DNA from: Gillisia marina
GTDB taxonomy: Bacteria; Bacteroidota; Bacteroidia; Flavobacteriales; Flavobacteriaceae
DNA: 64,000 nt
Reading direction: 5' to 3'
NCBI RefSeq assembly: GCF_000258765.1
Contig: NZ_AJLT01000052.1
Span: 1 to 64,000, forward strand
The notes under the pieces were generated by a model. That model made no database searches. It saw nothing but the letters and a program-made list of their open reading frames with translations, and had not been told where the DNA came from. Shown one piece after another: positions 41,722-63,777 of this stretch. The translations under genes were made by a program, and so were the position numbers. Numbering within the stretch: position 1 is the first letter of the stretch; every line of letters begins with the position of its first letter.

Positions 41722-41740
41722 CGGAAATTTTAGACTACTA

Positions 41741-42552: not shown

Positions 42553-44382
42553 TTAAGATTTACTACTTATCACCTCGCTTTTTTCTGAAATCCCATTCTC
42601 ATTAAAGGCTTCCACCTGAAAAAAGTATTCGGAATCTATATTTAAAGCTCTCAGGTCATAGTTGTTCTTGTCATATATAAGCACTGAATTATTAAGCCTA
42701 TCAGCCTTAATCCCCCAATACAGCACGTAGCCCTGAGTGTTTTCAATACTTTTCCAGTTTAAAGTGGCATCCCTTCTATCTTTTTCTCTAACTACTACGA
42801 AGTTTTCTGGCCTAGATGGCTTCTTTCCAGATCCAATTCCAAACACCCTAAATTCTGAAATCGCTAAATATTTGTTGGAACAAAACACGTGCTTATATCG
42901 CACATATCTCGCTTCTAATTCTTTATCAAATTGAATGAAAGCGTGAGGCTGATCTTTCTTATTCTTAGAATAATCGGCTGCAGTTTTCCAATCTTTTTTA
43001 TCTAATGATACTTCAATTATAAATTGATGTTTTAGATTATCGGGACGCCCAAATACCTCAGCATTTACATCGTGAAAATTAATTTGGGTCGCCTTTAAAT
43101 TCATTTTACTTCCCAAGTCCACTGTGAAGTAAATGGAATCATTATTCTGTTCTGACACCCAAAAACTTCTGATGTTCTCGTCGGTTAACTTTGAAATATT
43201 ATAATCTTCTTCAAGTTTTTCCGGAGTGTATCCTTGTTCGGTCTCCTCAATAGTCTTCGCGTGAATTGTCGCTAAGGGAGCATTTGTTTCAACAGGTTTA
43301 TTATAGGATAATAACATCCAACCCGTAAATCGATTTTTATGGCTTTTCACCTTAACATTGGGCAAATAATGAGGATAATCTCCATAAGCTGTATTTACAT
43401 ACATCTGCCCATCTTCCTCAAATCCTGCCGGGTACATCCCAATTCGACGTTCAAATTTATAGTTTACAGAAATCGGCATAGTTGCAAAATGCCAATAATT
43501 ATCATTAAAATCTTGAACCGTACTTCCATGACCTGCTCCATTTAAAAAACCTCCGGGTTTATAAGAGATTGGATTGTATTCCGCATACGTAAAAGGCCCA
43601 AGTGGCGAATCTCCAACATAAACACCATCTGCATATACATTCCATTGCGTCCCAGGAGCGGCATATTGTAAATAATATTTCCCATTATGCTTGGTCATCC
43701 AAGGCCCCTCGATAAATGGTTTCACATCTGAATTATGATTGTTTCCAAAGCGTTCCCAGCCATGCTCCTCCGGATGTAAGGTAATTAGATCTACCGGCTC
43801 TCCAATAGGAACATAATTCTTGTTTGGATCTAATTCCAGTCCTTTAATAGGAAATAAGTTGGAAGATCCTTCATAAACATATACTCTTTTATCATCGTCT
43901 ACAAAGATAGCCGGGTCGTGCAGGGTGTGTGGAATTACACTATAGGTAGTTTTCCAATCTCCTAATTTAGGGTTGTTGGTTTTAATTAATGCGTTTACTC
44001 CAGAAGGGTCACCTAACACCAAGATCTCATCTTCTGTGGCCCAAGCTGCAGGAGCGTTCGAACCATTGAAATACCAGCTTTGTGGCTTTATGAATTTCCA
44101 ATTGGACATATCTTTGGAATACCAATATCCATGCGAACGGGTTACAAACATATAAAAGCCGTCTTTATAACGAACTATCGAAGGATCTGCTCCAGACCTA
44201 TAACTCACATTTCTGAAGGCGTAATGAGACATATATGAGTAGTCGATATCTATAGGATTACAGTAAGCTGTAAAACTTTGTTTTATCTCTGTCTCGTTCG
44301 AATCCAGACTTTTTGAACTATTTTCATTATCCTCACAGGACACAATGAATACTATACATATGAGAAGTAGAAAATTTTTCAT
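42553..44382 (-). CDS. GH43-like lipoprotein with F5/8 type C and fibronectin III-like domains (609 aa)
   Basis: Lipobox at Cys16. The five-bladed propeller has the GH43 triad: D66 ('SGADPSIVRYKDG'), D156 ('HTLHDPAIFVDDD') and E225 ('FIEGPWMTKHNG'). A discoidin/CBM32-like region follows (about 390-510, 'IYFTVDLGSKMNLKATQINFHDV', 'YVRYKHVFCSNKYLAISEFRV'), then an FN3-like end. GH43 enzymes mostly act on arabinosides, xylosides or galactosides; the subfamily is not identifiable here. It is the last gene of the PUL, 19 bases after the GH97 stop, and would trim side chains at the cell surface. Confidence 0.85.
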   Translation of the reverse strand: MKNFLLLICIVFIVSCEDNENSSKSLDSNETEIKQSFTAYCNPIDIDYSYMSHYAFRNVSYRSGADPSIVRYKDGFYMFVTRSHGYWYSKDMSNWKFIKPQSWYFNGSNAPAAWATEDEILVLGDPSGVNALIKTNNPKLGDWKTTYSVIPHTLHDPAIFVDDDKRVYVYEGSSNLFPIKGLELDPNKNYVPIGEPVDLITLHPEEHGWERFGNNHNSDVKPFIEGPWMTKHNGKYYLQYAAPGTQWNVYADGVYVGDSPLGPFTYAEYNPISYKPGGFLNGAGHGSTVQDFNDNYWHFATMPISVNYKFERRIGMYPAGFEEDGQMYVNTAYGDYPHYLPNVKVKSHKNRFTGWMLLSYNKPVETNAPLATIHAKTIEETEQGYTPEKLEEDYNISKLTDENIRSFWVSEQNNDSIYFTVDLGSKMNLKATQINFHDVNAEVFGRPDNLKHQFIIEVSLDKKDWKTAADYSKNKKDQPHAFIQFDKELEARYVRYKHVFCSNKYLAISEFRVFGIGSGKKPSRPENFVVVREKDRRDATLNWKSIENTQGYVLYWGIKADRLNNSVLIYDKNNYDLRALNIDSEYFFQVEAFNENGISEKSEVISSKS

Positions 44383-44401
44383 AATTCAGTTTTTCTAAAA
44401 A

Positions 44402-46501
44402 TTAATTTGCCGGCACGATACTAACAGCTGTTCCTCCTCCGGGAGCCAAATTCAGTTTTAATATTGATTTGCTTGTAACTGTTTGCTCTTTTATGGAATA
44501 GCTCTTTGGATTTATTTTCCAGTCGGCATCCTTTCCATCCTGGTAAATAATGGCTTTGTATTTTTTATTTGGAGAAAGAAAATCAAGTTTTATTTCAGTT
44601 TTTCTTGGGTTTTTATCGGTAATGGAACCTAAGAACCAGCTCTCTGAGTTTTTATCTTTTCTAACCACAGTTAAGTAATCTCCAGGTTCAGCTTCCAGAT
44701 AAATAGATTCTTGCCAATCTAACGGCACGTCTTTTATAAATTGAAATGCATCAAGATATCTTTCGTAATTCTCAGGTAAGTCTGCAGCCATTTGTAAGGG
44801 AGAATACATGGTGACATATAAGGCCAATTGCTTAGCTAAAGTGGTATGTACTTGTTCTGTCTTAGTAGGATCATAAATATTCATCTTAATTTCAAAGATC
44901 CCTGGAGTATAATCCATAGCTCCTCCTAATAATCGTGTAAACGGTAGAATGGTTTCATGCTTTGGGTCGTTCCCCGAGCTCCATGCATTAAATTCATTTC
45001 CACGGGCAGCTTCGGCAGCAATATAATTCGGATAGGTTCTGCTATATCCTGTAGGGCGAACACTTTCATGAGAATTCACCATGATCTTATAATCTGCAGC
45101 GCGTTGTGCCACAAAGTTAAAATGATTCACCATAGTTTGCCCGTCATGATATTCCCCACGCGGAATGATCCTTCCCACATAGCCTGTTTTCACTGCCGGA
45201 TAATCGTATTCTTTCATGAGGTCAAAAGCTCTGTCTAAATGCCTTTCATAGTTGGCAACAGAACCAGAGGTTTCATGATGCATGATCATTTTGACTCCCT
45301 TAGCTTTAGCGTAATCTGCAACTTCTTTGATATTAAAGTCCGGGTAAGGAGTGGTAAAATCGAAAACATCTTCTTTCCAATTGCCAAACCAATCTTCCCA
45401 ACCAACATTCCAACCTTCTACCAAAACTCCGTCGAATCCGTGTTTGGCAGCAAAATCTATATATCTTTTAGTGTTTTCTGTAGTTGCGCCATGCTTTCCG
45501 GAAGGAATAAGATCTTTGGAGGCTGCATTTTGAGCATTTTGGCTCCCGGCAAAATCCCATGTAGATTTCCCTACATGCATTTCCCACCAAATCCCAACAT
45601 ATTTCATAGGTTTAATCCAAGAGGTGTCTTCTAGTTGATTGGGTTCATTAAGATTTAAGATCATTTTTGAACTTACAACTTTCCGAGCATCATCACTTAC
45701 CATTATAGTTCTCCATGGAGTTACTGAAGGAGTTCTTAAATAAGCTTTATCTCCAAGAGCATCCGGAACTAATTGCGAGCTAAGTTTAAAACTTTCAATA
45801 TCTACATTTAAATGCATTACAGGATAATTAACCACTGCTGCTTCAAAAATATTGATATACAGGCCATCATTAGATTTCATCATTAATGGCGATTGTACTC
45901 TATAATTGCTTTCAATACTCTTTAAAGCGATCCCGTTATTTAAATCCAGTTTGGAATTGTCTATTTCAGATAACTTAGTTTCAGAATACACATATTCCTG
46001 ACTGTCATAATCTCCCGGGATCCAAAAGGTTTTATGATCCCCTGTAAGATTGAACTCTGTATTCTCTTCAGAAACAATAAAATAACTAAGAGCGTCTTGA
46101 GCAGGAAATTCGTATCGAAAAGCCACGCCTTCATCATAGACTTTGAAAATGATATCCAATTTTCTATTGGCTTCCTTTTGAAGCAAATGAAAGCTTACCT
46201 GTATATAATTATTTTTGATGCTGGATTGCTCTCCCAACACCGGGTTCCAGGAATCATCAACGCTTGTTTCTTTTTTATTTAGAATACTAAAACCTGTTGT
46301 AAGGGCAGTATCATCCTTGAGAGAAATCCCCAGCTTACTAGGTTTAACAACCTCTTTCCACTTGTATCTAACTTGATATGTTGGCTCTCCTAAAGAACTT
46401 AGAGAGAATTCCAAAGTAATCTCTTTGGAGGGAGATTGAATTTGTTGCGCAGAGATTGACGAAAAAACAAGCACAAACAGCAAAAAATATAATTTTTTCA
46501 T
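44402..46501 (-). CDS. GH97 glycoside hydrolase, predicted inverting alpha-glucosidase (SusB-like), 699 aa
   Basis: Signal peptide (about 1-18). N-terminal super-beta-sandwich, catalytic TIM barrel from about 300, C-terminal beta domain. Residues expected of inverting GH97 are present: E410 ('IMHHETSG'), E479 ('VNSHESVRPTG') and E503 ('ARGNEFNAW'). The retaining alpha-galactosidase branch has an Asp nucleophile instead; here the corresponding stretch reads 'AVKTGYVGR', with no Asp. In SusB the three Glu bind calcium and catalyse. An alpha-glucosidase in this PUL implies an alpha-glucosyl part in the substrate. It lies 20 bases after the GH3 stop, in the same transcript. Confidence 0.92.
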   Translation of the reverse strand: MKKLYFLLFVLVFSSISAQQIQSPSKEITLEFSLSSLGEPTYQVRYKWKEVVKPSKLGISLKDDTALTTGFSILNKKETSVDDSWNPVLGEQSSIKNNYIQVSFHLLQKEANRKLDIIFKVYDEGVAFRYEFPAQDALSYFIVSEENTEFNLTGDHKTFWIPGDYDSQEYVYSETKLSEIDNSKLDLNNGIALKSIESNYRVQSPLMMKSNDGLYINIFEAAVVNYPVMHLNVDIESFKLSSQLVPDALGDKAYLRTPSVTPWRTIMVSDDARKVVSSKMILNLNEPNQLEDTSWIKPMKYVGIWWEMHVGKSTWDFAGSQNAQNAASKDLIPSGKHGATTENTKRYIDFAAKHGFDGVLVEGWNVGWEDWFGNWKEDVFDFTTPYPDFNIKEVADYAKAKGVKMIMHHETSGSVANYERHLDRAFDLMKEYDYPAVKTGYVGRIIPRGEYHDGQTMVNHFNFVAQRAADYKIMVNSHESVRPTGYSRTYPNYIAAEAARGNEFNAWSSGNDPKHETILPFTRLLGGAMDYTPGIFEIKMNIYDPTKTEQVHTTLAKQLALYVTMYSPLQMAADLPENYERYLDAFQFIKDVPLDWQESIYLEAEPGDYLTVVRKDKNSESWFLGSITDKNPRKTEIKLDFLSPNKKYKAIIYQDGKDADWKINPKSYSIKEQTVTSKSILKLNLAPGGGTAVSIVPAN

Positions 46502-46521
46502 AGAAGATTTATAACACGAAT

Positions 46522-48870
46522 TTACTTAACAAGCTCAAATTTTGACTTTAGAGTTTCCTCAGAATTAGTTCCAACAAAAACTTCAAACTCTCCAGGTTCT
46601 GCAACAAAATCTAAATCATAATTATAAAATTTCAAATCCTCAGCAGTCAATTTAAAGCTCACTGTTTTAGTTTCACCTTTTTTCAATTGGATTTTCTGAA
46701 AGCCTTTTAATTGCTTTACCGGTCTGGTAATAGATCCTACCAGATCCCTAATATATAATTGCACCACTTCTTTCCCATCATAATTCCCTGTGTTTTGAAT
46801 TGTCACACTAACCTCTAATGTCCCATTTTCTTCAAGCTGCTCTGGACTCAGCTTTAAATTATCATATTTAAAGTTGGTGTAACTCAAGCCGTAACCAAAA
46901 GGAAATAAAGGCTCGTTGCGTTCATCTATATAATTGGAACGGAATTTCTCAAACTTCCCTTCGGAATTTCCAAGGGGTCTTCCGGTGTTCTTATGACTGT
47001 AATAAATAGGAATTTGACCTACACTCCTGGGAAAAGTAGCGGTGATTTTTGCTGAAGGGTTTACATTTCCAAACAACACATCTGCAATAGCATATCCCGT
47101 TTCAGTACCACCAAACCAAACATCCAGGATCGCTGGAACAGTTTCGTTCTCTTGAGTTAGTACTAAAGGTCGCCCGTTAAATAAAACTAAGACTACCGGT
47201 TTTCCTGTTTTAAGCAAAGCATTCAGCAAGTCTTTTTGAGATTGGGGAATTGAGATATTTGTACGACTACTACTTTCTCCGCTCATTTCTGCCGCCTCCC
47301 CTATCGCTGCAATAATCACATCGGCCTTTGAAGCAATGTCTAAAGCTTCTTTTAGCAATTCTTCATCAGACCTGCCATCTCTTGGAATTTCCTTACCAAA
47401 CATGGTTCCTCTTTCCTCAAAATCCTTATCATAAGAAAGGTTACTTCCTTTTGCATATAATACAGAACCGGCGCTCCCTACAACCTCTTTGATTCCTTTA
47501 AGCACAGAAATAGATTTATCCTGAGGTGTTGCCACACTCCAGGTTCCAGCCATATTCTCATTAGTATTTGCCAAAGGACCAATCACAGCTATAACTCCGG
47601 TCTTTTTAATAGGAAGGAGATTATTTTCATTTTTTAGCAGCACCATAGATTCTGCAGCCACTTTTCTTGCGAAGGCTCTATTTTCCGGAGTGAATATTTC
47701 TGATTTAGCTCTGTTCTCATCACAATATTTATAGGGATCTTCAAATAGACCTAATTCATATTTTGCCTCTAATATGCGTCTCACTGAAGCATCTATTTTC
47801 TCAATAGAAACTTTTCCTTCGTTTACCGACTTTTCCAAAGTTGAGACAAATCCTTCACCAACCATATCCATATCTACCCCAGCATTTAAAGCTAAAGCAG
47901 AAACCGTTTGCAGATCACCCATTCCATGAGCTATCATTTCATTGATCCCTGTATAATCTGTTACCAAAAATCCTGAGAAATTCCACTGATTTCTCAAAAC
48001 ATCTGTAAGCAACCATTTATTCCCTGTAGCAGGAATACCGTCTACCTCATTAAAGGAAGCCATTACAGATCCTACTCCAGCATCGATGGCCGCTTTGTAA
48101 GGTGGGAAATAGTCATTATACATTTGAATTCTACTCATGTCTACTGTGTTGTAATCTCTACCGGCTTCAGATGCGCCATATAATGCAAAATGCTTAACGC
48201 AGGAAAGTATAGTGTTGTTCTTACTAAGATCTTCTCCTTGATATCCACGAACCATCGCTTTTGCAATTTCTCCCCCTAAATATGGATCTTCCCCATTCCC
48301 TTCAGAAACACGTCCCCACCTAGGGTCTCTGGAAATATCTACCATAGGAGAAAAGGTCCAGTTAATTCCATCGGCACTAGCTTCCTTTGCAGCCATTTTC
48401 GCGGTTTTTTCAATCATTTCCATATCCCAGGAAGTAGATAATCCCAATGGAATTGGAAAAGTGGTTTCATAACCATGAATTACATCCATCCCAAAGATCA
48501 ATGGAATCTTTAATCGACTATCCTCGACTGCTATTCTTTGAACTTCTTTAATCTTTTCTACCGTTTTTATATTGAAAAGACCCCCGATTTTTCCTTCTTT
48601 TATTTTCTGTGCAACATCCGAACTTTTAGCTTGTCCTGTCGTAATATCCCCAGAGGAAGGCAAGTTTAACTGACCAAGTTTTTCTTCTAAAGTCATCACA
48701 GAAAGTAAGGAATCTATCTTTTTATTCATTTCAACTTTATTCGCCTTAAAAGCTGAATAATCTATTCCATGAGATTTTTCTTGTGCATTCACCATTAGGG
48801 TAAATGCAAAAGTTGCCAGTAAAATCAATTTTGTTTTTAACATCGGGGTCTTCATTATATTATAGTTCAT
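46522..48870 (-). CDS. GH3 beta-glucosidase (782 aa)
   Basis: Signal peptide near the N-terminus. Met6 or Met10 may be the true start. The (beta/alpha)8 domain carries the nucleophile D305 ('SGFLVTDYTGINEM'), 'LSCVKHFALYGASEAGRDYN' and 'DPRWGRVSEGNGEDPYLGG'. The second domain begins at about 420 and has 'IAAIGEAAEMSGESSSR', with the usual acid/base region. A fibronectin III-like end ('NTGNYDGKEVVQLYIRD') completes the BglX-type layout. It would release glucose from beta-glucosides such as sophorose. In known beta-1,2-glucan PULs a GH3 sits beside GH144, as here. Confidence 0.95.
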   Translation of the reverse strand: MNYNIMKTPMLKTKLILLATFAFTLMVNAQEKSHGIDYSAFKANKVEMNKKIDSLLSVMTLEEKLGQLNLPSSGDITTGQAKSSDVAQKIKEGKIGGLFNIKTVEKIKEVQRIAVEDSRLKIPLIFGMDVIHGYETTFPIPLGLSTSWDMEMIEKTAKMAAKEASADGINWTFSPMVDISRDPRWGRVSEGNGEDPYLGGEIAKAMVRGYQGEDLSKNNTILSCVKHFALYGASEAGRDYNTVDMSRIQMYNDYFPPYKAAIDAGVGSVMASFNEVDGIPATGNKWLLTDVLRNQWNFSGFLVTDYTGINEMIAHGMGDLQTVSALALNAGVDMDMVGEGFVSTLEKSVNEGKVSIEKIDASVRRILEAKYELGLFEDPYKYCDENRAKSEIFTPENRAFARKVAAESMVLLKNENNLLPIKKTGVIAVIGPLANTNENMAGTWSVATPQDKSISVLKGIKEVVGSAGSVLYAKGSNLSYDKDFEERGTMFGKEIPRDGRSDEELLKEALDIASKADVIIAAIGEAAEMSGESSSRTNISIPQSQKDLLNALLKTGKPVVLVLFNGRPLVLTQENETVPAILDVWFGGTETGYAIADVLFGNVNPSAKITATFPRSVGQIPIYYSHKNTGRPLGNSEGKFEKFRSNYIDERNEPLFPFGYGLSYTNFKYDNLKLSPEQLEENGTLEVSVTIQNTGNYDGKEVVQLYIRDLVGSITRPVKQLKGFQKIQLKKGETKTVSFKLTAEDLKFYNYDLDFVAEPGEFEVFVGTNSEETLKSKFELVK

Positions 48871-48879
48871 CTTCTTTTA

Positions 48880-50589
48880 TTATTCCATGCGTTCACCGCG
48901 TAATTTCTCAAAATTTTTATATGCCCTTTTAACTGATTCTGGGGTTGAGGTTTCAAATTCCTTTTCAGTGACTTTATATGCTCTTTGTAAGGAATCCAGT
49001 TTGCTTTTCATTTTATCTATCCTATCCTGATACTTAATTTCACCATATAGATTTTTAAGTTCTTTAGGATCTTCCTTTAAGTCATAAAACTCCCATTGAT
49101 CTATGTCGTCGTAAAAATGAATCAACTTGTACCTCTCGGTTCTCACGCCATAATGGCGTTTCACCATGTGGAAAGCAGGAAAATCATAAAAATGATAATA
49201 AATCGCTTCTCGTTTTGGAGCCATATCATTTTCAGAAAAGAGATTTTTAAATGAAACCCCTTGCATATCTTGAGGTGGTTTTATTCCTGCAAAATCTAAA
49301 ATTGTAGGGGCAAAATCAAGATTTTGGGTAAGTCCATTCACTGTAGAATTTGGTTTGATCTTCTTAGGAAATTGCATTAGCAAAGGCATTTTAAAAGATT
49401 CTTCGTACATAAATCTTTTATCGAACCAACCCTTTTCCCCAAGATAAAATCCTTGATCTGAATTGTATATAACAAGCGTGTTTTTATCCAAACCTGTTTT
49501 TTCAAGATAATCTAAGATTTTCCCGACTCCTTCATCTACAGAAGCAATTGTGGCCATATATTCCTGTAAATAACGTTGCAACTTATATAAGGCCATCTCT
49601 TTCCCGCTTAGATTTAAGTCGTGCATGGCATCATTCTTCTCGCGATAAGCTGTATTCCAAATCTTGCGTTGTTCTGGAGTCATTCTTTCAAAATCATCCG
49701 TCCATGGATTGCTGGCTAATTCATCTGTACCATGATGCTTAGACATTTTTAAGTCATGCCCTTCGTACATATCTTTATAAACAGTTTGTAATTGCTGTTG
49801 TGCTGCCTTTTGATTTGGATGCTTAGAAAAATAGGTGTCAGGAACAGGAAATTGAACAGAATCATATAAATTTAAATGTCGTAGCGCAGGCATCCAATTT
49901 CTATGTGGTGCTTTGTGATGTACCATGAGATAAAAAGGCTTCATTTTGTCCCTCTTTTCCATCCAATCTATTGAATAATTGGTGATAAGATCTGTGGCAT
50001 ATCCTTCAGCAATTGCAGTATCTTTCATATTAATCGCCCAGTGTGGATTGTTTTTTACATATTCCTTATCCAGATTTACCGTGTCTTTTTGCTCTATAAA
50101 CTCTGGGTTATAATATTTTCCTTGATCATTTAAAATCTTCCAATAATCGAATCCTGTTGGGAATCCATGAAGATGCCACTTCCCAATAATGGCCGTTTGG
50201 TACCCATTCTCTTGAAGGATCTTCGGAAAGGTTTGTTGAGAATTATCGAATTTTTCACCATTCATTCTGAAGCCATTAATATGACTATGCTTCCCTGTTA
50301 GGATGACTGCTCTACTGGGACCACAAATTGAATTGGTACAGAAGTTCTTCTGAAAAACGGCTCCGTTCCTAGCCAATCTGTCAATATTTGGGGTAGGTGC
50401 CACTTTTCCTATTTCATGACCATAGGCGCTAATTGCCTGAACCGCATGATCATCGGCCATAATAAAAATTATATTTGGTCGATCCTGTTCTAGCTCAATT
50501 TTCGATAAGTCTGAATTCTTCGAATCTTTCTTGCATCCACTTAAAATGGAGATGAAAATCAAGAGGAAGAATTGAAGACTTAATTTCAT
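48880..50589 (-). CDS. S1-type sulfatase lipoprotein (569 aa)
   Basis: Lipobox at Cys19 ('SILSGCKK'). The formylglycine site is C89-G-P-S-R ('TNSICGPSRAVILTGK'), so it belongs to the arylsulfatase superfamily and needs a maturase. Metal ligands: 'IMADDH' at 44-48 and 'VIYNSDQGFYLGEKGW' later. It removes O-sulfate from a glycan. No sulfatase-maturating enzyme lies in the window, but one must exist elsewhere if the enzyme is active. It sits between the esterase (6 bases) and GH3 (10 bases), a tight PUL gene. The substrate is unknown. Confidence 0.93.
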   Translation of the reverse strand: MKLSLQFFLLIFISILSGCKKDSKNSDLSKIELEQDRPNIIFIMADDHAVQAISAYGHEIGKVAPTPNIDRLARNGAVFQKNFCTNSICGPSRAVILTGKHSHINGFRMNGEKFDNSQQTFPKILQENGYQTAIIGKWHLHGFPTGFDYWKILNDQGKYYNPEFIEQKDTVNLDKEYVKNNPHWAINMKDTAIAEGYATDLITNYSIDWMEKRDKMKPFYLMVHHKAPHRNWMPALRHLNLYDSVQFPVPDTYFSKHPNQKAAQQQLQTVYKDMYEGHDLKMSKHHGTDELASNPWTDDFERMTPEQRKIWNTAYREKNDAMHDLNLSGKEMALYKLQRYLQEYMATIASVDEGVGKILDYLEKTGLDKNTLVIYNSDQGFYLGEKGWFDKRFMYEESFKMPLLMQFPKKIKPNSTVNGLTQNLDFAPTILDFAGIKPPQDMQGVSFKNLFSENDMAPKREAIYYHFYDFPAFHMVKRHYGVRTERYKLIHFYDDIDQWEFYDLKEDPKELKNLYGEIKYQDRIDKMKSKLDSLQRAYKVTEKEFETSTPESVKRAYKNFEKLRGERME

Positions 50590-50594
50590 GATTC

Positions 50595-51302
50595 TTATTT
50601 TTTCTGAGCTAACATCCAGCTGTAAAACTCCGGATTATTATAGGTTTCCTCCCAGCTATTATGGTTTGCAAAAGGATAGATCGTATATTTTACATCATTC
50701 CCAGCTTCTTTAAGGGTTTTTACCATTTGGTTGCTATTCTCAGGTAAAACCACATCATCTAAGGCGCCATGAAAAACCCAGATTGGCATGTCTTTAATGT
50801 GAGATATATTTCTATAAATTGGTCGGTAAATTGCACCACAAACAGGGGCCAACGAAGCGAAAAGCTCTGGATATTCTCCTCCGGTTGCCCAAACCCCATA
50901 ACCACCCATACTTAAACCTGTAAGGTAAACTCTGCTTTTATCTATTCGGTTTTCCTTCATCACATTTTTAACCAGCGCTGCAACTTCATGTGGTTGCCAA
51001 TAAACTCCTTCCGGGCATTGTGGAGCTAATATTACTGCATCAATTTTATTTCCATCTTTAACATATTTTAAGGGCCCGTGTACAGATACCTTGGATAAGT
51101 CTTTTCCGCGCTCTCCAGCTCCATGAAGAAAAACAATAAGTGGGAAATCTATTTTTGAATCATTATATCCATCTGGAGTGTATAGGGCATAATCCAACTT
51201 AACAGACATTTCTATTTTCTCCTCAAAAGAATGTTCTGTGATCTGAGAAAATGAAGTTGAATACATTCCAACGATAAAAAATAAAACCAAAAAATTTTTC
51301 AT
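50595..51302 (-). CDS. secreted alpha/beta hydrolase, carboxylesterase-like (235 aa)
   Basis: Signal peptide (residues 1-20, 'MKNFLVLFFIVGMYSTSFSQ'). Catalytic Ser131 in the nucleophile elbow GLSMGGYG, with Asp in 'HGALDDVVLP' and His in 'FANHNSWEE' completing the triad. The fold and 'FLHGAGERGKDL' match the feruloyl/acetyl esterase-like (CE1-like) class often found in PULs. It may remove acetyl or acyl groups from the glycan before the hydrolases act. It starts 6 bases after the GH144-type gene stop. Confidence 0.85.
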   Translation of the reverse strand: MKNFLVLFFIVGMYSTSFSQITEHSFEEKIEMSVKLDYALYTPDGYNDSKIDFPLIVFLHGAGERGKDLSKVSVHGPLKYVKDGNKIDAVILAPQCPEGVYWQPHEVAALVKNVMKENRIDKSRVYLTGLSMGGYGVWATGGEYPELFASLAPVCGAIYRPIYRNISHIKDMPIWVFHGALDDVVLPENSNQMVKTLKEAGNDVKYTIYPFANHNSWEETYNNPEFYSWMLAQKK

Positions 51303-51308
51303 ATTTCA

Positions 51309-52685: not shown

Positions 52686-52710
52686 TGTTTGGATTTGTTT
52701 CAATTAATTT

Positions 52711-52751: not shown

Positions 52752-52819
52752 ACTAGGTCAAGAAAAATATTTGATTTTAGAGAAATGTGATAGTTATAAT
52801 CCTTAGAGGATCTATCAAA

Positions 52820-54798: not shown

Positions 54799-54883
54799 TA
54801 CTCAACGCGATTTAAGTTAGTTATATTTTTAAAATTTTTATTTTAAACGACCTTCAGATCGCCTTTACTTGATCTTGAATGAA

Positions 54884-56257
54884 TTAGATATTCGGACTTG
54901 TAAAACCTAGTTTTGTTAAGCCTTGTTTTACTTCGGGACAAGACATGAATAAATTCCATAACAACCCGGTTCTATAATTTTCTACCATAACTATTATTGG
55001 TCCTTGATCTATTGCCAGATATTGATTTGAATACCAATTGGCAGATTCATTAAAGGCATCGTAAAACCCATACTGCCCCCATAGTTTTCCATTGTAATTG
55101 TAATAGAAATTCCGTAGTGCTTGCAAAGATTCATCTGGCGTGTAGGGCATAGACGACAATGCTGCCGTTGGAGTAATTGTACCATTATCGTTGGTAGGAC
55201 TGTGTGCCGAATACCCTTGGTTATCATCACTAGCCGTTAATCCCCAAGTAGTTACACCATATCCCAAAAAACCTTTGGGGTTTCTCGTGCAGTACTCTCT
55301 ATTGATAAGAGTATGATTTATATTTTGATCCCAGTAATTTGCGTAGTTGTCCTGTAATCCTTCAGGATTTAACCCTAAAAAGGAATAGTGAGCAAAAAAC
55401 AATGGGCCACCAAAATCTGGGCCTAGAGGTAATTGCCATTTCTGATAATATAATTTTCCGTTTAAATGGTTATTTCCCGAGGCCCATCCATTATGATAAA
55501 CATCTGGCTCTATAGCATGAGTTCTGGAAGATGCCGCTAACACATAGGTAATAAGGGCTTCATTATACCCCTTGATTTGATGATTGATAGTAAAACCGTA
55601 TTCCGGAGACCAGTGCCAGGTTAGTGATTTTTTATTATTGGTATACCAATCCCATTCTACTCCATCCCAAATTAGATTGATTTTATCCCTCAATTCTTTT
55701 TCTTCGGAATTGTCCAAATCAAAATACTGTCTGGCAGTAAGTAAACCTTGGATCATAAAAGAGGTTTCTACCAGGTCTCCCCCGTTATCTTCAGTAAAAA
55801 AAGGTCTTACTTTTCCGGTATTTCCATTGTACCAATGTGGTAAGGCTCCATGAAACCTGTCTCCGTCCAAAATAAAACTGGTGATCTTATTCAATCTACC
55901 TAAGGCTTCTTCGCGAGAAATGTAGTTTCTTTCTACACCAACAATAATCGCCATGACTCCAAATCCACTCCCTCCGCTAGTAACTATATTGGGACTTTCT
56001 CCTCCATAAGCATTTGCATCAGATCTTTCACGAGCCATTCCACTAACTGGATGGCCAAAATCCCAAAAGTATTTGAAAGTTTGTTCCTGCACTTTATCCA
56101 TTAACTCATTATCTGTAAGCTGAGGTGGCAAACCCGAGTCCGGATCTGTTGGGACGGGTTTACCTCCACTTGAGTCATCATTGCTTGAGCACGATACAAA
56201 CACAGTACTTAACATCCCAAAAAAGATTAGCGTGAGTATAAATCGTGTTTGTTTCAT
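54884..56257 (-). CDS. GH144-type lipoprotein (glycoamylase-like PF10091), first copy (457 aa)
   Basis: Start Met at 56257 (MKQTRFILTLIF); the longer frame to 56335 has no signal. Lipobox near Cys23 ('LSTVFVSCSS'). Same (alpha/alpha)6 family as the gene at 51309: 'NGGDLVETSF' (D161/E164), 'GYNEALITYV' (E233), 'WHWSPEYGF' and 'PFYDAF'-like C-terminal phrases. GH144 cuts beta-1,2-glucan. The two copies differ outside the core, so they may be endo- and exo-acting or face different sides. It follows SusD by 43 bases. Confidence 0.9.
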   Translation of the reverse strand: MKQTRFILTLIFFGMLSTVFVSCSSNDDSSGGKPVPTDPDSGLPPQLTDNELMDKVQEQTFKYFWDFGHPVSGMARERSDANAYGGESPNIVTSGGSGFGVMAIIVGVERNYISREEALGRLNKITSFILDGDRFHGALPHWYNGNTGKVRPFFTEDNGGDLVETSFMIQGLLTARQYFDLDNSEEKELRDKINLIWDGVEWDWYTNNKKSLTWHWSPEYGFTINHQIKGYNEALITYVLAASSRTHAIEPDVYHNGWASGNNHLNGKLYYQKWQLPLGPDFGGPLFFAHYSFLGLNPEGLQDNYANYWDQNINHTLINREYCTRNPKGFLGYGVTTWGLTASDDNQGYSAHSPTNDNGTITPTAALSSMPYTPDESLQALRNFYYNYNGKLWGQYGFYDAFNESANWYSNQYLAIDQGPIIVMVENYRTGLLWNLFMSCPEVKQGLTKLGFTSPNI

Positions 56258-56300
56258 GAAAAAATAATTTTTAAGATTGTAACCTTTCAGAATACTATTA

Positions 56301-57746
56301 TTAGTAACCAGGATTTTGAACCAATTGACCGTCACTTAGGTCGATTTGAGCTTGTGGAATTGGAAATAACTCATGTTTTCCATCCACAAAATTCTTACCG
56401 TGAGCCCGCAATACTGCTCCAGCTCTACCTTGACGTACCAGATCGAAATATCTATCATGCTCAAAGGCAAGTTCAGCTCTTCGTTCTCTCCACACATCCA
56501 TGATCGTTACATTTTCTAAACTTTCAAGCCCTGCACGATTTCTCACCATGTTTAATGGCGTTTTCGCATCGCCTCCTACATTTATTGCTGCTTCAGCATT
56601 CATTAAAAGCACCTCTGCATATCTTAAAATTCTAACATTCTTATTTGATTCCCAATCTCCCCCATTAAAGCTTTCCATAGTCCTACTTACATAGGCTTTT
56701 TGATTATATCTAGGGTTAGAAACTGTTTCTGCAACAAGAAAATCATCCCAAAGAGTTTCTCCTCTAAAAATTATGGTAGCATCTCTTCTTTCATCTCCTT
56801 CTTCATAAAAATTAGTAAGATCTTCTGTTGGGGTATTAAATCCCCAGCCCCAGCCTCCAGCACCTCTAGCACCTTGGGTAACAAAATATCCTTGTACACC
56901 TTTATTTGGCGTTTCTCCCCTCCCCTGAATCTCAAAAATAGATTCTGAATTATTTTCTCCAATTTCTTTCCAGATATCCTCATATACAGGAGTTAAACTA
57001 TAACCCAGACTCATCACCTCATTGGTAAGCTCTAAAACTTGTTGCCAGTTCCCCTGGTACATGTTTACTTTTGCCAATAATGTTAAGGCGGCACCTTTTG
57101 TTGCTCTTCCAAGATCGGCACTATTATATGAGTTAGGTAAACTTTCTATAGCATCCTCTAAATCTTGAGTTATAAATGTATATATAGCTTCTTTTGAAAC
57201 TCTCGTATTTGCGGCATTAATATCATCCTGATTTTGAATATCCGGAACACCCTCTATTAATGGAACACCTCCAAACATTCTCACCAATCTAAAATAAAAT
57301 TCAGCTCTCAAAAATTTACTCTCTCCAATTAATCTATCTCTGAGGTCTTCATCGATATCCAAATCTGGAAGAAATTTTAATGCCTGATTTGCTCTCGCAA
57401 TACCTTGGTAGTTCCCTTCCCAAACTTCATTAAAAGAAATAGAGGTAGAAGTAAAGGTTAGATCATCTAAAAGTTGCTTGTCATTACCCGTATCTCCAGG
57501 ATCACTTCCTTTATCGGCATCATCACTAGTAATACTACTCACACCAATCCAAGAAAAAGAACTTTCGTTAAAGTCTAAAAACTTATTATAGATGGCATTC
57601 ACAAGCTCTGTAGCCGCAGTAGGGCTGGAAAGAGCTTGTTCCGGAGTTTCCTTGGATGGTTGTACATCCAGAAATTCATTATCATCACAACTTACAAGTG
57701 TTAGGAACACTAGACTTGTAATAATTATGTTATTAAAATTTTTCAT
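56301..57746 (-). CDS. SusD/RagB family nutrient-binding outer-membrane lipoprotein (481 aa)
   Basis: Lipobox Cys20 ('FLTLVSCDD'). SusD-like N-terminus ('FLDVQPSKETPEQALSSPTAATELVNAIY', split over two segments), TPR-like helices, 'FYFRLVRMFGGVPLI' and the C-terminal 'RERRAELAFEHDRYFDLVRQGRA'. It caps the SusC barrel and binds glycan. The start is the Met at 57746; the frame continues upstream to 57755. It follows SusC by 12 bases, standard pairing. Confidence 0.97.
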   Translation of the reverse strand: MKNFNNIIITSLVFLTLVSCDDNEFLDVQPSKETPEQALSSPTAATELVNAIYNKFLDFNESSFSWIGVSSITSDDADKGSDPGDTGNDKQLLDDLTFTSTSISFNEVWEGNYQGIARANQALKFLPDLDIDEDLRDRLIGESKFLRAEFYFRLVRMFGGVPLIEGVPDIQNQDDINAANTRVSKEAIYTFITQDLEDAIESLPNSYNSADLGRATKGAALTLLAKVNMYQGNWQQVLELTNEVMSLGYSLTPVYEDIWKEIGENNSESIFEIQGRGETPNKGVQGYFVTQGARGAGGWGWGFNTPTEDLTNFYEEGDERRDATIIFRGETLWDDFLVAETVSNPRYNQKAYVSRTMESFNGGDWESNKNVRILRYAEVLLMNAEAAINVGGDAKTPLNMVRNRAGLESLENVTIMDVWRERRAELAFEHDRYFDLVRQGRAGAVLRAHGKNFVDGKHELFPIPQAQIDLSDGQLVQNPGY

Positions 57747-57758
57747 ACCTAGCATTTT

Positions 57759-60734
57759 TTAAAAATTTAAATTCACACCTACGAGATAGGACTTTACAGA
57801 TGGATAAGCATTCAATTCGATCCCAGAGGAGTTCCCCAGTGGGTCTCCATTTCCTGGTAGTTCTGGTGTAAACCCTGTGAATTCCTTAAAGATAAAAGGG
57901 TTTTGTGCCAGTGCATATACCCTAATCTTTTTAACTCCAGCGATAACATCTGGTAAAGTATATCCTACCGTAATATTATTAATTCTGAAAAAATCTCCGC
58001 TTTCTAAGAAATATGTAGAAGATAATGGTACTTCGTTAGAAGGTGCGGGATTCATATTAGATCCACTATCAAAATTAAAGATGTTGTTAGCTACACTAGC
58101 TTCCACATTTTCACCTCCAAAACGCTGTGCTTTTTTACCGTTGTAAACCATGCTTCCCGAATTTCCATAGCCTTCAATATTGAAATCCCAGTTTTTATAT
58201 TCGAAGCCTGCATTTATTCCAAAATAGAGATCCGGCTGAATTGAACCGAAGAACTGACGGTCATCATTATCTATTACCCCATTATTGTCTAAATCTGTAT
58301 AAATAAAATCCCCTCTTTCATCAAACCCCTGAACTTCCAGCACAAAGAAACTCCCCAAAGGCTGACCTTCCCTTAAGATCTTTGTAACTTGTCCATTATC
58401 AATGCTTCCTCCCTGTTGCTCAAAAGCAAAAGGATTGGTTATCTCTTCTAAATTATTATCGTTTGTTGTAAGATTCCCACTAATATGATATTTAAAATTG
58501 TCATTGATATCATCATTCCAATGAAGGGCAAATTCTAAACCTTTATTCCTGATCTTACCCGCATGAGTTAGGGTAATCCCCGAAGCTCCAAAAGCATCTG
58601 GTAAGCTAATAGGTAAGATCGCATTCCTATTTAATCTATTATAGTAATCAAATTCCCCAGAAAGCCGGTTATCTAGAAAGGCGAATTCCACCCCAATATC
58701 GTACTCTTCAGTAACTTCCCATCCAACATTTTCGTCTATGATGGCAGTAATTGTTGACCCGGGAACCAATGCCTGATCTGGCCCAAAAACAGTTCCCAAA
58801 TCTGAATCAAAGGTTATCACGTTTAAAGGAATATTCTGGTTCCCCAATTCACCCCAACTAGCTCTTAATTTGAGAGTGTTCAGGAATTCAGATTCGTTTA
58901 AGAAGTCTTCATTGGTAATCAACCATCCTATACCTACTGAAGGAAAATTACCCCATTTCTCAGCATTGTTGGCAAAGACGCTAGAACCATCACGCCTTAT
59001 TGTAGCTGTTAAAAGATATTTATTATCAAAATCATAATTAAGTCGTGCAAAGTATGATCTCAACCTCCTTTTGTCTGAAAGTTCACTATTCGCTATATCT
59101 GTTCCTTGTTCTCCGTTGTTTAATGAGAAGAGATTTGAATCTTCAGGAACGTTATTTCGTGTACCTTCTAGAAAATCATTTTGTTCCTCTTCCGCAGTGG
59201 TTCCCAGGGTTAGCTTAACTCCATGTTTTTCAGCAAAGGTTTTATCAAAAGTTAAGAAAGCATCGAATACCCAATGATAAAAATCATCTTTTCTTACCCT
59301 TAAAGTATTTCTATTAGGAGAATCAAAATCTGAAACTTCTCTGGTAGGATCTCCTGCAAGGAATTGTTCTAAATTAGGTGTAAAAACGTAAGATTTTCCA
59401 TATCCACTCTCAATCCCAAATCTTGTAGTCCCAGATAAATAATCGGTAAAATCGTAAGTGGCAGAAACATTTCCTTGAAGAACAAGGTTTTTTCTTTTTT
59501 CATCATTTAATGCTAATGCGGCAACAGGGTTACCAACATTATTAAATCTCGCGCCTGCACTATCAAATGGCACTCCAAATCTCCCATCGAAAGAACCACC
59601 AATATATCGTACAGGTACAATTGGCGCTTGTTTGTAGGCAGTTGTAAAAGCTGAAAATGGTTTTGGAATCGATCGGTTAAGAGATAGAGAAATATTATGA
59701 TCGATTTTTAATTTGGAAGTCAGGTTATAACTAGCCTTACCTCTTAAGTTAAGCCGTCGATAATCATTCCCTATTAAAATCCCTTCTTCTTCGAAATAAT
59801 TAGCACTGAAATAAGAAGTCATTTTTTCGGTACCTCCGCTTATCGAAACATTATGGTTAATGACTGTCCCGGCGCGGGTTATCTCATCAAACCAGTCTGT
59901 ATCATATTGCTGATCTTGTTGAAATCTCTGATTTCCGAATGCCAAATTAGAAAAATTAACATAGGCACTGGAGTTCGCCATATCTACTTTACTCAACACT
60001 TCCTTAATACCAAAATAGGAAGAGACATCAATCTGCATCTTTCCAATTTTCCCGGCTTTGGTGGTTACAATAATAACTCCGTTTGCTCCTCTGGTTCCGT
60101 AAATTGCAAGAGAAGAGGCATCTTTAAGGATATCTATAGTGGTAATATCTTCACTACTAATATTGTCTATTCTATCTGTAATAATTCCATCTACTACATA
60201 AATAGGATCACGCCCAGCTTGCACAGTCCCAGTACCACGAATACGTACAACCGGTGAACTGCCCGGAGCTCCAGAACTAATAATTTGAACCCCTGCGGCC
60301 TTACCTTGTAAAGATTGAGTTGCAGTTAAGGCAGGTTGTTTTAAAAGTTCCTCTGCATTTATTCTAGTAATAGAACCTGTTACATCTTGTTTTCTTGTAC
60401 TACCGTATCCAACAAGCACAACTTCTCCCAATGAAGAAGCACTTTCCGTCATAATTACATTGATAGTGTTTTGTGTGCCAACGCTAATCTCATTTGTTTC
60501 AAATCCCAAAAAACTAAATACTAGGACGTCGTTATCATTTGCACTAATTGCGTATTTTCCATCAAAATCAGTTATAGTTCCGGTTGAAGTACCTTTAACA
60601 AGAACATTAACGCCTGGCAGCGTTACTCCACCTGGCTCCGACGTTACAGTTCCAGAAATTATTCGTTCCTGAGCTTGTAATTGAAAATAAAACATAGTAA
60701 GCAATACAAATAATAGAGTAAATTTTGTTTTCAT
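57759..60734 (-). CDS. SusC/RagA family TonB-dependent receptor (991 aa)
   Basis: Start Met at 60734 (MKTKFTLLF); the frame extends upstream to 60794. Signal peptide to about 20 ('LQAQERI'). Then a carboxypeptidase D-like regulatory domain ('SGTVTSEPGGVTLPGVNVLVKG', 'FDGKYAISANDNDVLVFSFLG'), the TonB box/plug region ('VVLVGYGSTRKQDVTGSI', 'IRGTGTVQAGRDPIYVVDGI') and a long beta-barrel. It imports oligosaccharides together with SusD, powered by TonB. SusC leads the operon. A TAGCTTTG box lies about 80 bases upstream. Confidence 0.97.
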   Translation of the reverse strand: MKTKFTLLFVLLTMFYFQLQAQERIISGTVTSEPGGVTLPGVNVLVKGTSTGTITDFDGKYAISANDNDVLVFSFLGFETNEISVGTQNTINVIMTESASSLGEVVLVGYGSTRKQDVTGSITRINAEELLKQPALTATQSLQGKAAGVQIISSGAPGSSPVVRIRGTGTVQAGRDPIYVVDGIITDRIDNISSEDITTIDILKDASSLAIYGTRGANGVIIVTTKAGKIGKMQIDVSSYFGIKEVLSKVDMANSSAYVNFSNLAFGNQRFQQDQQYDTDWFDEITRAGTVINHNVSISGGTEKMTSYFSANYFEEEGILIGNDYRRLNLRGKASYNLTSKLKIDHNISLSLNRSIPKPFSAFTTAYKQAPIVPVRYIGGSFDGRFGVPFDSAGARFNNVGNPVAALALNDEKRKNLVLQGNVSATYDFTDYLSGTTRFGIESGYGKSYVFTPNLEQFLAGDPTREVSDFDSPNRNTLRVRKDDFYHWVFDAFLTFDKTFAEKHGVKLTLGTTAEEEQNDFLEGTRNNVPEDSNLFSLNNGEQGTDIANSELSDKRRLRSYFARLNYDFDNKYLLTATIRRDGSSVFANNAEKWGNFPSVGIGWLITNEDFLNESEFLNTLKLRASWGELGNQNIPLNVITFDSDLGTVFGPDQALVPGSTITAIIDENVGWEVTEEYDIGVEFAFLDNRLSGEFDYYNRLNRNAILPISLPDAFGASGITLTHAGKIRNKGLEFALHWNDDINDNFKYHISGNLTTNDNNLEEITNPFAFEQQGGSIDNGQVTKILREGQPLGSFFVLEVQGFDERGDFIYTDLDNNGVIDNDDRQFFGSIQPDLYFGINAGFEYKNWDFNIEGYGNSGSMVYNGKKAQRFGGENVEASVANNIFNFDSGSNMNPAPSNEVPLSSTYFLESGDFFRINNITVGYTLPDVIAGVKKIRVYALAQNPFIFKEFTGFTPELPGNGDPLGNSSGIELNAYPSVKSYLVGVNLNF

Positions 60735-60815
60735 AAGCACACCTATTTTTGAAGAATTAATGTTTTCAGATTTATGATATTTACCATAGCGCATTAAAAT
60801 GCAACGAGATTATAC

Positions 60816-60823
60816 CAAAGCTA
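60816..60823 (-). promoter_or_regulatory. possible -7 box for the SusC operon
   Basis: On the minus strand TAGCTTTG fits TAnnTTTG, about 82 bases before the SusC start. A clear -33 TTTG is absent, as would be expected if an activator is needed. Confidence 0.35.
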
Positions 60824-61009
60824 ACACTAGATAGGGTGTTGTTAAGATTTACATAATATAAGTAAACACATCAAGTTTAAAGATACCTCTAAATCTTTGT
60901 TTTACAATGAATTATAAAAATAAAATAAAGTAGTTAAAATTTTATAATTTAATAATGATGTGGAAAAGATGAGGTTGAAAATGAATATTTACAACGTTTT
61001 CGAAGATAT

Positions 61010-63777
61010 TTATACTACTTTATGTAAAAATTTAACCAAATTTTGATTTTTAGGAAGATTAAATTTTTTCCGTAATCTGTATCTATGTAATTCTACACTT
61101 CTGTATGTAATTCCAATTAAAGGAGCAATTTCCTTGGAGCTAAGATTCATAATAAGGTAGGCACACATTTTTAAATCCTTTGGGGTAAGATTGGGAAATT
61201 TTAATTGTAAGTTTTTAAAGAAATCATCATGAACCTCATTAAAATTTATATCAAAAAGTGCCCAATCATTTTGAGAATTTGACTGTTGCTCTTTAATATT
61301 CATAAGCTTTGAATAGAGCGTTTTATTTTCCTTTTTAATATTTGATTTTACGATTTCCCTTTCAATTTCATTCAACATGTCCTCCTTTTTCGCCATTAAA
61401 GCAGCATAGGAAGCTAGTTCTTTACTTTTAGACTTAAGTTGAGTTTTTAATTTTTCTTGTTCTAACTGAATTATCTTATTATTATTTTCAAAATTTTGTT
61501 TTTGGAAAGTGAGGTTTTGCTTATACTCTAGATCTCTCTCCAGTAGCTTCTTCTTTCTATTAAATTTCTGTTTATTATAATAATGAACTAGAAAAAGAAT
61601 CATTGCTAAAAGAATCACATATCCAATCCAAGCCCACACACTGAGATACCAGGGCTGAAGCACACTAAAAGAAAAAAGCGTCTTTTCCGTTGTATTCCCT
61701 AAACTGACTTTTTTTTACTTTAAATTTATAATCCCCTGGATGCAGGTTTTGATATGCCACATGAGAAGTATTATTTGGTGTGGACCATTTTTTATCGTAA
61801 CCCTCCAATTTGAAAGAATAGAGGGGTAATGATAAGGTGCCTGGAGTATGACTGGAAAACTTTAAACTAATTGTATTCTTCCTGAACGGGATATCAATAG
61901 AGGCATTAAGTGGTATCGAATTACCATTTACCTTCACAGCTTCTAAAGATAGGTTAGTTAAATTGTTCTTTTTTTCAGAGATCGAAGGATTAACTTTTAA
62001 AAAACCATCGTCCAAAAATAAAAATAGCGAAATATCTATTTTCTTCGCGCTAGAAGCATTTTTAACTAATCTACTATTGATTAATTCTTCATTAAAATTA
62101 TATAAATTATCTCCTTTCGTGGAAGTAATTCGGAGTGAACTCGCGGTTTTTATAATCAGTAATTCTTTATTAATACCAGATATGCTTGAAAATGGGTATA
62201 ATTTTTTTTTCTAATATGGAGTCCCTAACCAATAGATCATGTAGTGCATCGTACCTAAATATTTGATTTTTTTTAGTTAGAAATATTTGGGAACCAAGAG
62301 CAAACATTTCATAGGGAACATTGGTATTCATAAAACTTTTTAGAAGTGTTAATTCCTCGAAATTTTCGGAAATTTTATATTTAAAAATACCTTTATGCGA
62401 GGCATCAACCCATAAACTCTGGTTTTCATCAAAATATATTCCCTTAACTGGAAAATCTAATTCTTTGAATCTAAATGATTCCCAGGAACCATTTATTTTA
62501 TGATATCTCGTAATACCAGCATAATTAGGCTGTAAATAATAATTCGTTCCGGAAATATTCAAAAAGTCCATTCCCCCATTTGTATCACTTATAAGGGTAA
62601 ATTCATTGTCCTTAATACTGTAGGTTCCATTGTTATGCCCACAAATAATTTCATCTCCAACATTTGTTAAGTCCCATACCTGACCATTAGAAGCCTTTAA
62701 AAATTTTAGCTGAGTACCTTTTAATGAGAACACCCCATGATTAGAACCCACTAAAAGATTTTCACCTTGATCTTCAATACTATATACCGTTCCTAATAAA
62801 CCCGATTTATCATTATACGCATAAACATCATTATTGAGGGATATCTTTGACAGGCCATTATCTAGCGCAAGCCATAAATTATTTTGAATATCTAAAAACT
62901 GCCTCAATACAGTATTGTTGGCTAGTCCATTATTTTTATTATAAACATATTTTAATACACCTTCCGAATCGTAAACCATTAATCCATTATTAATGGTGCC
63001 AACAAAAACCAAGTCGCCTGCGATCTTTAAATTGTTGATTTCCAGATACTCCATTTCAGCGAAAGTAGAAAAAGACCATTTTTTTAAAACAGCATCTTTA
63101 TAATAAAATATTCCGTTAATTTGGGTTGCTATTAATAACCCATCTTTGTAATCCACTATACTCTGGACACTATAATTTTCTAAAGGTTTACTCCAGCTAA
63201 GCGGAATAATACTATCATTTTCTATTTTATAGATACCATTATTTTTGGTGCCTACATATAATTTGTCATTGATGAGGAAAGTATACACGGCCGAAATATT
63301 GCCTAAAGGGAGTACATTAATTTTCTTAGTCTGCTTATTATATCTATAAATTTTATTGAAGGACTGAAACAAGATTTCCTCACCGAACGGAATTATTTTC
63401 CAAATTTCATCGTTATTAAAGATGTTTTTATCAAGTGAATCACTTATAGAAGTATACTGAAGTTCATTTTTGACATTTTTAAGCCAATAACCAAATTGAT
63501 GGTATGAACCAGAATATAAAGTATCATTTATAACGCTTACCGATCTGAATATCCCATTCGATGGCAACGTATGCTTAGCCCAATAATCTCCATTAAAGGC
63601 GAGGAGATATTTATTATTTGCTACATAAATGGTTCCATCAGGATGTTGAGTGATATCCCAATTTGAATTTTCCCCTTTATATTCAGTTTTTAGATAATTT
63701 GTGAAATAAGGAGCAATTTCCTGTCCTTGAAGAGTATAACATGTCGTTAGAAATAGACAAATTAGAACTCCCTTCAT
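61010..63777 (-). CDS. SusR-like membrane-spanning regulator (propeller, Y_Y_Y, TM, LuxR-type HTH), about 921 aa, two frameshifts
   Basis: Starts at Met 63777 (MKGVLICLFLTTCYTLQGQ, a signal peptide). Residues to about 620 are periplasmic propeller repeats ('DITQHPDGTIYVANNKYLLAF', 'LWLALDNGLSKISLNN'), then a Y_Y_Y domain ('LYSFKLEGYDKKWSTP'), a TM helix ('VWAWIGYVILLAMILFLVHYY'), a coiled coil and a C-terminal HTH ('LTPKDLKMCAYLIMNLSSKEIAPLIGI', 'YRSVELHRYRLRKKF'). No histidine kinase or receiver domain is seen, so it is a one-component sensor-regulator. Two breaks, A9 at 62201-62209 and A8 at 61710-61717, are each repaired by removing one A. It lies just upstream of SusC and likely activates the PUL. 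Confidence 0.88.

Follow-up and report, generated by a model that had tools for sequence, protein, structure and literature searches.

A GH144 polysaccharide utilization locus in Gillisia marina predicted to act on a decorated beta-1,2-glucan

Gene content of the locus

The window analysed here, a stretch of 64,000 nucleotides from Gillisia marina (contig NZ_AJLT01000052.1, one of the 116 contigs of a draft genome of 2.98 Mb with 93.6% completeness), carries a polysaccharide utilization locus (PUL) built around two proteins of the glycoside hydrolase family GH144. According to the list of open reading frames (ORFs), its eleven genes, all encoded on the minus strand between 63795 and 42553, follow the order regulator, SusC, SusD, GH144a, binding protein, GH144b, esterase, sulfatase, GH3, GH97 and GH43. 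An adjacent susC/susD pair accompanied by carbohydrate-active enzymes, by which a PUL is recognised, was found with both Pfam and NCBIfam. Pfam agreed with all ten proteins tested (GH43 with F5/8 type C and fn3 domains, three-domain GH97, GH3, sulfatase with SGSH_C, alpha/beta hydrolase, two PF10091 proteins, a CBM4_9-like protein, SusD and SusC), and NCBIfam gave matches for seven of the ten, with none for GH43 or the two PF10091 proteins. The gene order and place given in an earlier sequence-only reading of the window were thereby borne out.

The two GH144 genes, GH144a (54884..56335, with a lipoprotein-like N-terminus) and GH144b (51309..52703), matched PF10091 with 265 and 268 bits, respectively. 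The best solved relative of both was CpSGL (5GZK), at 546.6 bits for GH144a and 569.7 bits for GH144b; XCC2207, apparently the XcSGL that is counted as GH144 in PMC12102758, scored 173.5 and 116.7, and the GH189 enzyme 8WY1 gave 19.7 bits or no match. Residues D135, D139, E142 and E211 of CpSGL (5GZH numbering) were aligned and identical in both proteins. E211 is the general acid of CpSGL and D135, D139 and E142 are essential, and mutation of these four residues lowers activity drastically (PMC12102758). Both PF10091 proteins are thus GH144 members, as the sequence-only reading had held, and are predicted to hydrolyse beta-1,2-glucan; a place outside GH144 was ruled out by bit scores and residues, not by a tree with solved references. 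In a FastTree phylogeny of 152 proteins, restricted to 380–560 aa, with four duplicate loci excluded and longer third copies absent, GH144b fell in a clade of 71 (58 of them the last GH144 of their locus, 2 the first and 11 single copies) and GH144a in a separate set of 29 (27 first copies, 2 singles). Because they fall in separate groups, the two look like old paralogues with no recent duplication.

The GH3 beta-glucosidase (46522..48870) was recognised by Pfam, passed the NCBIfam BglX cut-off (952 versus 666 bits) and scored more than 1100 bits against six solved GH3 sequences; we take 5XXL to be the beta-1,2-glucosidase of Bacteroides thetaiotaomicron. The core of GH144 and GH3 proposed before is therefore present. 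The GH97 (44402..46501), supported by Pfam and solved-structure matches, scored 844 bits against 8WG0, presumably FjGH97A, 833 against SusB (2D73) and 195 against the retaining enzyme 5E1Q. SusB residues E194, E439, E508, E526 and E532 are conserved in its alignment, and positions 194 and 526 are presumably metal ligands. A retaining alpha-galactosidase was ruled out by the 195 bits to the retaining enzyme and by the NCBIfam model for retaining GH97, which gave 290 bits against a cut-off of 800. In SusB, E439 and E508 serve as general bases and E532 as the acid (PMC12102758). The SusB and 8WG0 scores, together with these residues, confirm the inverting alpha-glucosidase type already suggested; FjGH97A cuts alpha-glucosides in the preference 1,6 > 1,3 > 1,2 > 1,4 (PMC10316084).

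The S1 sulfatase (48880..50589, lipoprotein-like, with the site C-x-P-S-R) was identified by the Pfam sulfatase and SGSH_C domains and lies near N-acetylglucosamine (GlcNAc)-6-sulfatases. The closest solved chain was 9S03 ('putative sulfatase'; 760 bits), for which a literature search found no paper, followed by the GlcNAc-6-sulfatase 5G2V, which we take to be BT4656, with 506 bits and the mucin-desulfating 7P24 with 497. Exo-L-galactose-6-sulfatase gave 325 bits, and the enzymes of phosphonate hydrolase type in the list about 100–105. The sulfatase was aligned with 33 of the 39 distinct sequences from related loci (34 in total; one short sequence, four of other lineages and that of L097 were excluded). 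C89, P91 and R93 of the formylglycine motif C-x-P-x-R were invariant, as were C19 of a likely lipobox and an Asp-x-Arg pair (D390, R392) that aligns with FDKR of 5G2V; one candidate histidine varies. D390 and R392 may be the pair of the S1_11 triad. S1_11 enzymes remove 6-sulfate from GlcNAc, with a histidine on O3 and Asp/Arg on O4; about half of them, above all aquatic ones, are without the part that reads the N-acetyl group, and the same triad is used for L-galactose (PMC10154612). A 6-sulfated glucose is a reasonable prediction for the target, with 6-sulfo-L-galactose as the main alternative.

The alpha/beta-hydrolase between GH144b and the sulfatase (50595..51302) is a predicted carbohydrate O-ester esterase, based on Pfam and a match of 137 bits to the esterase PDB 3DOH. 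The GH43 gene (42553..44382), with F5/8 type C and fn3 domains, matched PF04616, for the five-bladed propeller of the family, with 77 bits. D66, D156 and E225 were invariant in 39 sequences (the window and 38 of 51 distinct locus sequences) and were taken by position as the Asp/Asp/Glu triad. Its structural model (mean pLDDT 79.8) matched GH43 xylosidases and arabinofuranosidases with Z 21 to 26 among the best 50 matches listed; the best had Z 26.0 and rmsd 3.0 over 283 aligned residues, and 5MSX (BT_3662) had the most residues aligned (388), but an rmsd of 6.7. A search with the alignment profile gave a best match of 58 bits.

The remaining genes encode a SusC-like TonB-dependent transporter (57759..60794; TIGR04056, 783 bits, and Pfam), a SusD-like lipoprotein (56301..57755; PF07980, PF14322 and its N-terminus), a predicted surface glycan-binding protein with CBM4_9-like repeats (52820 to about 54798; PF02018) and a regulator (61010..63795). 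The regulator is split in two ORFs (62170-63795 and 61010-61663) and was named via the relative in locus L082, which has Y_Y_Y, Reg_prop (propeller) and weak LuxR-type matches. Alignment with L040 placed its breaks near 62200 and 61705, near A-runs; of the 56 regulator ORFs that clustered together, 24 measure 913–977 aa, and many others are cut by locus ends. The frame of the binding-protein gene breaks near 54520 in the alignment, and an intact gene of 658 aa was found in five Gillisia relatives. The breaks in both genes lie in or near one-base runs, which fits sequencing error, with decay as the alternative. The sequence-only reading had described a complete PUL; its order stands, but these two genes are frame-broken. 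The GH144 locus of another genome (L039 of G011) also contains many short ORFs (GH3, GH43, SusC, sulfatase) and one GH144 with a stop, and looks decaying or badly sequenced.

Judged by eye, GH144a, GH144b, SusD, the sulfatase and GH43 of the window begin with lipoprotein-type signals, and GH3, GH97 and the esterase with export signals of the ordinary kind, which would place these last three in the periplasm. A crude lipobox pattern, applied to the ORFs of the locus clusters with uncurated start codons, fitted 123/180 GH144, 25/42 sulfatase, 14/55 GH43, 31/91 GH3, 2/12 GH97 and 2/61 esterase ORFs. Because the pattern is inconsistent across clusters and the starts are uncurated, we infer the membrane sides rather than read them directly.

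Recurrence and linkage to GH144

GH144 was found above the cut-off in 46 of 159 family genomes by a PF10091 search. Neighbourhoods were compared by clustering the ORFs of 106 loci, many of which end at about 20 kb; at least four genomes are represented twice (L044/L034, L048/L032, L080/L119, L064/L118), one genome is split over L133 and L134, and the domain names of each cluster were taken from one representative. The most frequent families were GH144 (103 loci), SusD (84), SusC (83), GH3 (82), esterase (60), regulator (55), a LamG-type binding protein (53), window-type GH43 (49), sulfatase (41) and a BD-FAE-type esterase (27), followed by GH2 (20), a PF03372 phosphatase (18), GH97 (11), a PF00149 phosphoesterase (10) and the window-type binding protein (7). 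Other genera show GH43, the sulfatase and the esterase slot in much the same arrangement, with some variation, and the gene pattern is beyond chance. GH97 comes immediately after GH3 in Flavobacterium psychrolimnae, F. omnivorum and a Flavobacteriaceae metagenome-assembled genome (3 of 54 named loci), beside G. lutea. The GH144 genes of Chryseobacterium, Epilithonimonas and related genomes (L085-L089, L091, L097) have no SusC/D matches and share a different neighbourhood.

Within the genus, related loci were found in 12 regions of 20 kb, from 12 other Gillisia genomes with GH144, as well as in many other genera; absences near a region edge are soft. Both GH144, the esterase, GH3 and SusD were present in 12/12 regions and GH43 in 10/12. 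A GH144 match was absent from three of the 15 other Gillisia genomes, these three being at most 82% complete. ORFs of about 240, 393 and 260 aa flank the locus in the window (39540-42517) and in L035-L038 and L041; judged by the size and order of these ORFs only, the locus probably sits at one old chromosomal site in several Gillisia. Two Gillisia genomes (L042:3145-11841 of G004 and L043 of G009) encode a PF10091 protein of about 2,900 aa, a type to which the draft genome of the window gave no match. Some Gillisia may make the polymer that they also degrade.

To measure linkage, the PF10091 search and three protein searches (GH97, sulfatase and GH43) over the same 159 genomes were compared by position. 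A gene was counted as linked within 20 kb of GH144; the window's own copies and the queries, themselves GH144-linked genes, were included. E-value limits were 1e-100 for GH97 and sulfatase, 1e-40 for GH43, 1e-20 for the esterase and 1e-30 for the PF00149, BD-FAE and PF03372 families. At most about eight candidates per genome were scored for sulfatase and GH43 and seven for GH97, so that totals of distant copies are lower bounds, and the identity cut-offs of 60% (sulfatase) and 70% (GH97) were chosen only after the lists had been inspected. We estimate that a random gene of a 3.6-Mb genome would lie this close to GH144 in about one case in 100.

Sulfatases of at least 60% identity lay near GH144 in 29/30 cases, the genome of the exception also having a linked copy, and those below 60% in 1/65 among the matches listed. 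For GH97 the counts were 4/4 at 70% identity or more, with the window and one other Gillisia among the four, and 2/77 below it among the matches listed. Of the GH43 relatives 25/30 were linked, with a 26th at 20.1 kb, and the other four lie elsewhere, two in genomes that lack GH144. Trees largely agreed. One clade (support 100) held 36 of the 59 sulfatase rows, with 35 of the 39 labelled linked and 1 of the 20 labelled unlinked, one row shorter than 480 aa having been removed beforehand; among the rows labelled unlinked, L177 has the same sequence as L064 and is actually located 1.6 kb from GH144. Eleven close GH144-linked GH97s, the window included, were set apart by one branch (support 98) from 20 further copies of the family, which had been fetched from the 77 and were mostly high-scoring. 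The sulfatase, GH43 and close GH97 lineages are thus almost exclusively linked to GH144.

The esterase family is less specific than these three, with 29 of 86 copies within 2.5 kb of GH144, and the window esterase recurs at 72–74% identity in only two others of the 159 genomes (G005, G100). The BD-FAE-type family was linked in 19 of 31 copies, and the slot beside GH144 thus holds more than one alpha/beta hydrolase lineage. All six copies of a PF00149 metallophosphoesterase family in the 159 genomes lie beside GH144 (the query itself counted; L125:10214-11209 and one copy in each of five more genomes), which suggests phosphate-type substituents on some beta-1,2-glucans. The PF03372 phosphatase was ruled out as a dedicated partner, as only 17 of its 80 copies are GH144-linked.

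Predicted substrate and alternative readings

Taken together, the locus is probably a PUL for a beta-1,2-glucan with 6-O-sulfate, O-acyl and alpha-glucosyl features. The decorated beta-1,2-glucan of the sequence-only reading is supported by the sulfatase and GH43 lineages being tied to GH144 and by the esterase slot beside it, the substrate itself being deduced. GH144a at the surface, perhaps with GH144b, would cut the backbone, and SusC/SusD would import the fragments. The esterase would then remove acyl groups and the sulfatase the sulfate from a gluco-configured residue, so that non-reducing ends are freed and GH3 could take off beta-1,2-glucose. GH97 would remove alpha-linked glucose where the chain carries it, and GH43 a further, unnamed substituent. 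Where the enzymes sit, which decorations occur and at which positions, how the steps follow one another and that glucose is the end product are predicted in this scheme; the gene content, the GH144 and GH97 family membership, the catalytic residues and the near-exclusive linkage to GH144 were observed.

Several observations weigh against this assignment. With the regulator and binding protein frame-broken, the locus may be silent in this strain, and the localisation of the enzymes is unsure, as the lipobox pattern fits only a part of the GH43 and sulfatase ORFs. GH97 and the sulfatase are accessory, being present within Gillisia in 5/12 regions and, at 60% identity or more, in 2/12, respectively. 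Two distant GH97s also lie within 20 kb of GH144, in L154 and, with stops, in G032. The L154 copy (48% identity), labelled unlinked in the tree, is actually 11 kb from GH144 and falls outside the branch, and the G032 copy is absent from the tree; GH97s near GH144 are therefore not all of this lineage. Likewise, four GH144-linked sulfatases (L064, L069, L082, L090) fall outside the dedicated clade, and a few loci therefore use other sulfatases. The window sulfatase may, like its aquatic S1_11 relatives, read L-galactose instead of a gluco sugar (PMC10154612), and the modelled GH43 fold resembles general GH43 enzymes only, with no recognised role on a glucan. In the literature searched, a sulfated beta-1,2-glucan was found no further described than by the inference in the text of PMC6499787; a search for sulfated cyclic glucan in marine loci, run with a poorly formed glucan term, found no paper.

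A tentative, rather unlikely proposal is that the natural substrate is an osmoregulated periplasmic glucan (OPG) shed by marine Proteobacteria, i.e. a beta-1,2 ring that a single alpha-1,6 linkage closes, like that of Rhodobacter sphaeroides, esterified with succinyl or acetyl groups and, at sea, carrying 6-O-sulfate. Beta-1,2-glucans closed by one alpha-1,6 bond occur in Ralstonia, Xanthomonas and Cereibacter (Rhodobacter) sphaeroides and are often succinylated or acetylated (PMC11842490), and CpSGL and a B. thetaiotaomicron beta-glucosidase have been applied to such a ring (PMC11228985). GH144, GH3, a 1,6-cutting alpha-glucosidase and an esterase are what an alpha-1,6-cyclised, acylated glucan needs, which would explain GH97, acting on the single alpha-1,6 bond, and the esterase, acting on the acyl groups; the sulfatase would remove the sulfate. 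This proposal is weakened by the presence of GH97 in only 4 of the 46 GH144-bearing genomes and leaves GH43 without a role, and no sulfated envelope glucan was found described in the parts of the literature that were searched. A search combining periplasmic glucans with polysaccharide utilization loci found no paper.

The usual targets of GH43 enzymes are arabinose, xylose or galactose, and the GH43 lineage of the window is tied to GH144. Together with GH2 in 20 of the 106 loci and the capacity of aquatic S1_11 sulfatases to use L-galactose (PMC10154612), this speaks for a heteropolysaccharide, such as an exopolysaccharide of algae or bacteria in which short runs of beta-1,2-linked glucose occur together with side chains of pentose or galactose and with 6-sulfate, and of which GH144 handles only a part. 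We consider such a substrate doubtful, as the most recurrent set is GH144, SusD, SusC and GH3, no other backbone depolymerase recurs among the annotated families, and the sulfatase scores lower against exo-L-galactose-6-sulfatase than against the GlcNAc-6-sulfatase. A chimeric PUL, as the sequence-only reading had allowed, would be a plain beta-1,2-glucan locus whose GH97, sulfatase and GH43 were acquired by accident or to serve other substrates. The patchy occurrence of GH97 and the sulfatase in Gillisia and the varying gene order would agree with it, but repeated chance capture would not yield three lineages almost confined to GH144 neighbourhoods; the linkage counts and the GH97 and sulfatase clades make a chimera very improbable. 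Scarcely any probability is given to the view that the sulfatase is a phosphoric ester hydrolase stripping phosphoglycerol-type groups from cyclic glucans. OPGs do bear phosphoglycerol and succinate (PMC11842490), and the metallophosphoesterase family occurs, within the 159 genomes, solely beside GH144, but the closest relatives of the enzyme are carbohydrate sulfatases (9S03, 5G2V), far above the phosphonate hydrolase type.

Comparison with known systems

In marine organisms, GH144 loci with an added sulfatase have been reported and an unknown sulfated polysaccharide inferred from them (Lapebie et al. 2019, PMC6499787). Maribacter has one GH3, two GH144, susCD and sulfatase genes, with GH144 in all Maribacter and Zobellia compared (PMC8072126), and GH144 is enriched in deep-water samples (PMC10405439). 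That the decoration is unusual, as had been supposed from the window by itself, is not supported, since the sulfatase is already on record (PMC6499787, PMC8072126) and GH43, esterase and sulfatase recur across genera. The linkage counts name enzymes for the ubiquitous unknown sulfated marine beta-1,2-glucan of Lapebie and colleagues, namely one sulfatase, one GH43 and one GH97 lineage, the esterase slot and a metallophosphoesterase. Taken together, the specificities of these enzymes could show how that glucan is built. If the substrate were instead a shed envelope glucan, the carbon source would be bacterial rather than algal, and flavobacteria would be recyclers of the envelope glucans of other bacteria.

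The Gillisia locus resembles the marine GH144 loci (PMC6499787; Maribacter dokdonensis, PMC8072126) in that a SusC/D locus combines GH144 with a sulfatase (and, in Maribacter, with GH3) and in the sulfated beta-1,2-glucan inferred; unlike those loci as described in the text of the two papers, it has GH97, GH43 and an esterase alongside, a combination that the tables of Lapebie and colleagues may list. With the beta-1,2-glucan clusters of B. thetaiotaomicron and Ignavibacterium album (PMC8861115) it shares GH144-type enzymes and a beta-glucosidase, whereas a sulfatase, GH97 and GH43 go unmentioned in the part of that source consulted, and the Ignavibacterium cluster differs by GH94, GH35 and an ABC transporter. 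The dextran locus FjDexUL of Flavobacterium johnsoniae (PMC10316084) has a GH97 of the same inverting type, but is centred on GH66 and GH31 instead of GH144, and in the tree the close GH144-linked GH97s stand as a clade apart from the 20 other family copies. Sulfated beta-1,2-glucan loci were already suspected in print; what is new is the evidence that the GH97, GH43 and sulfatase lineages are dedicated parts of GH144 loci.

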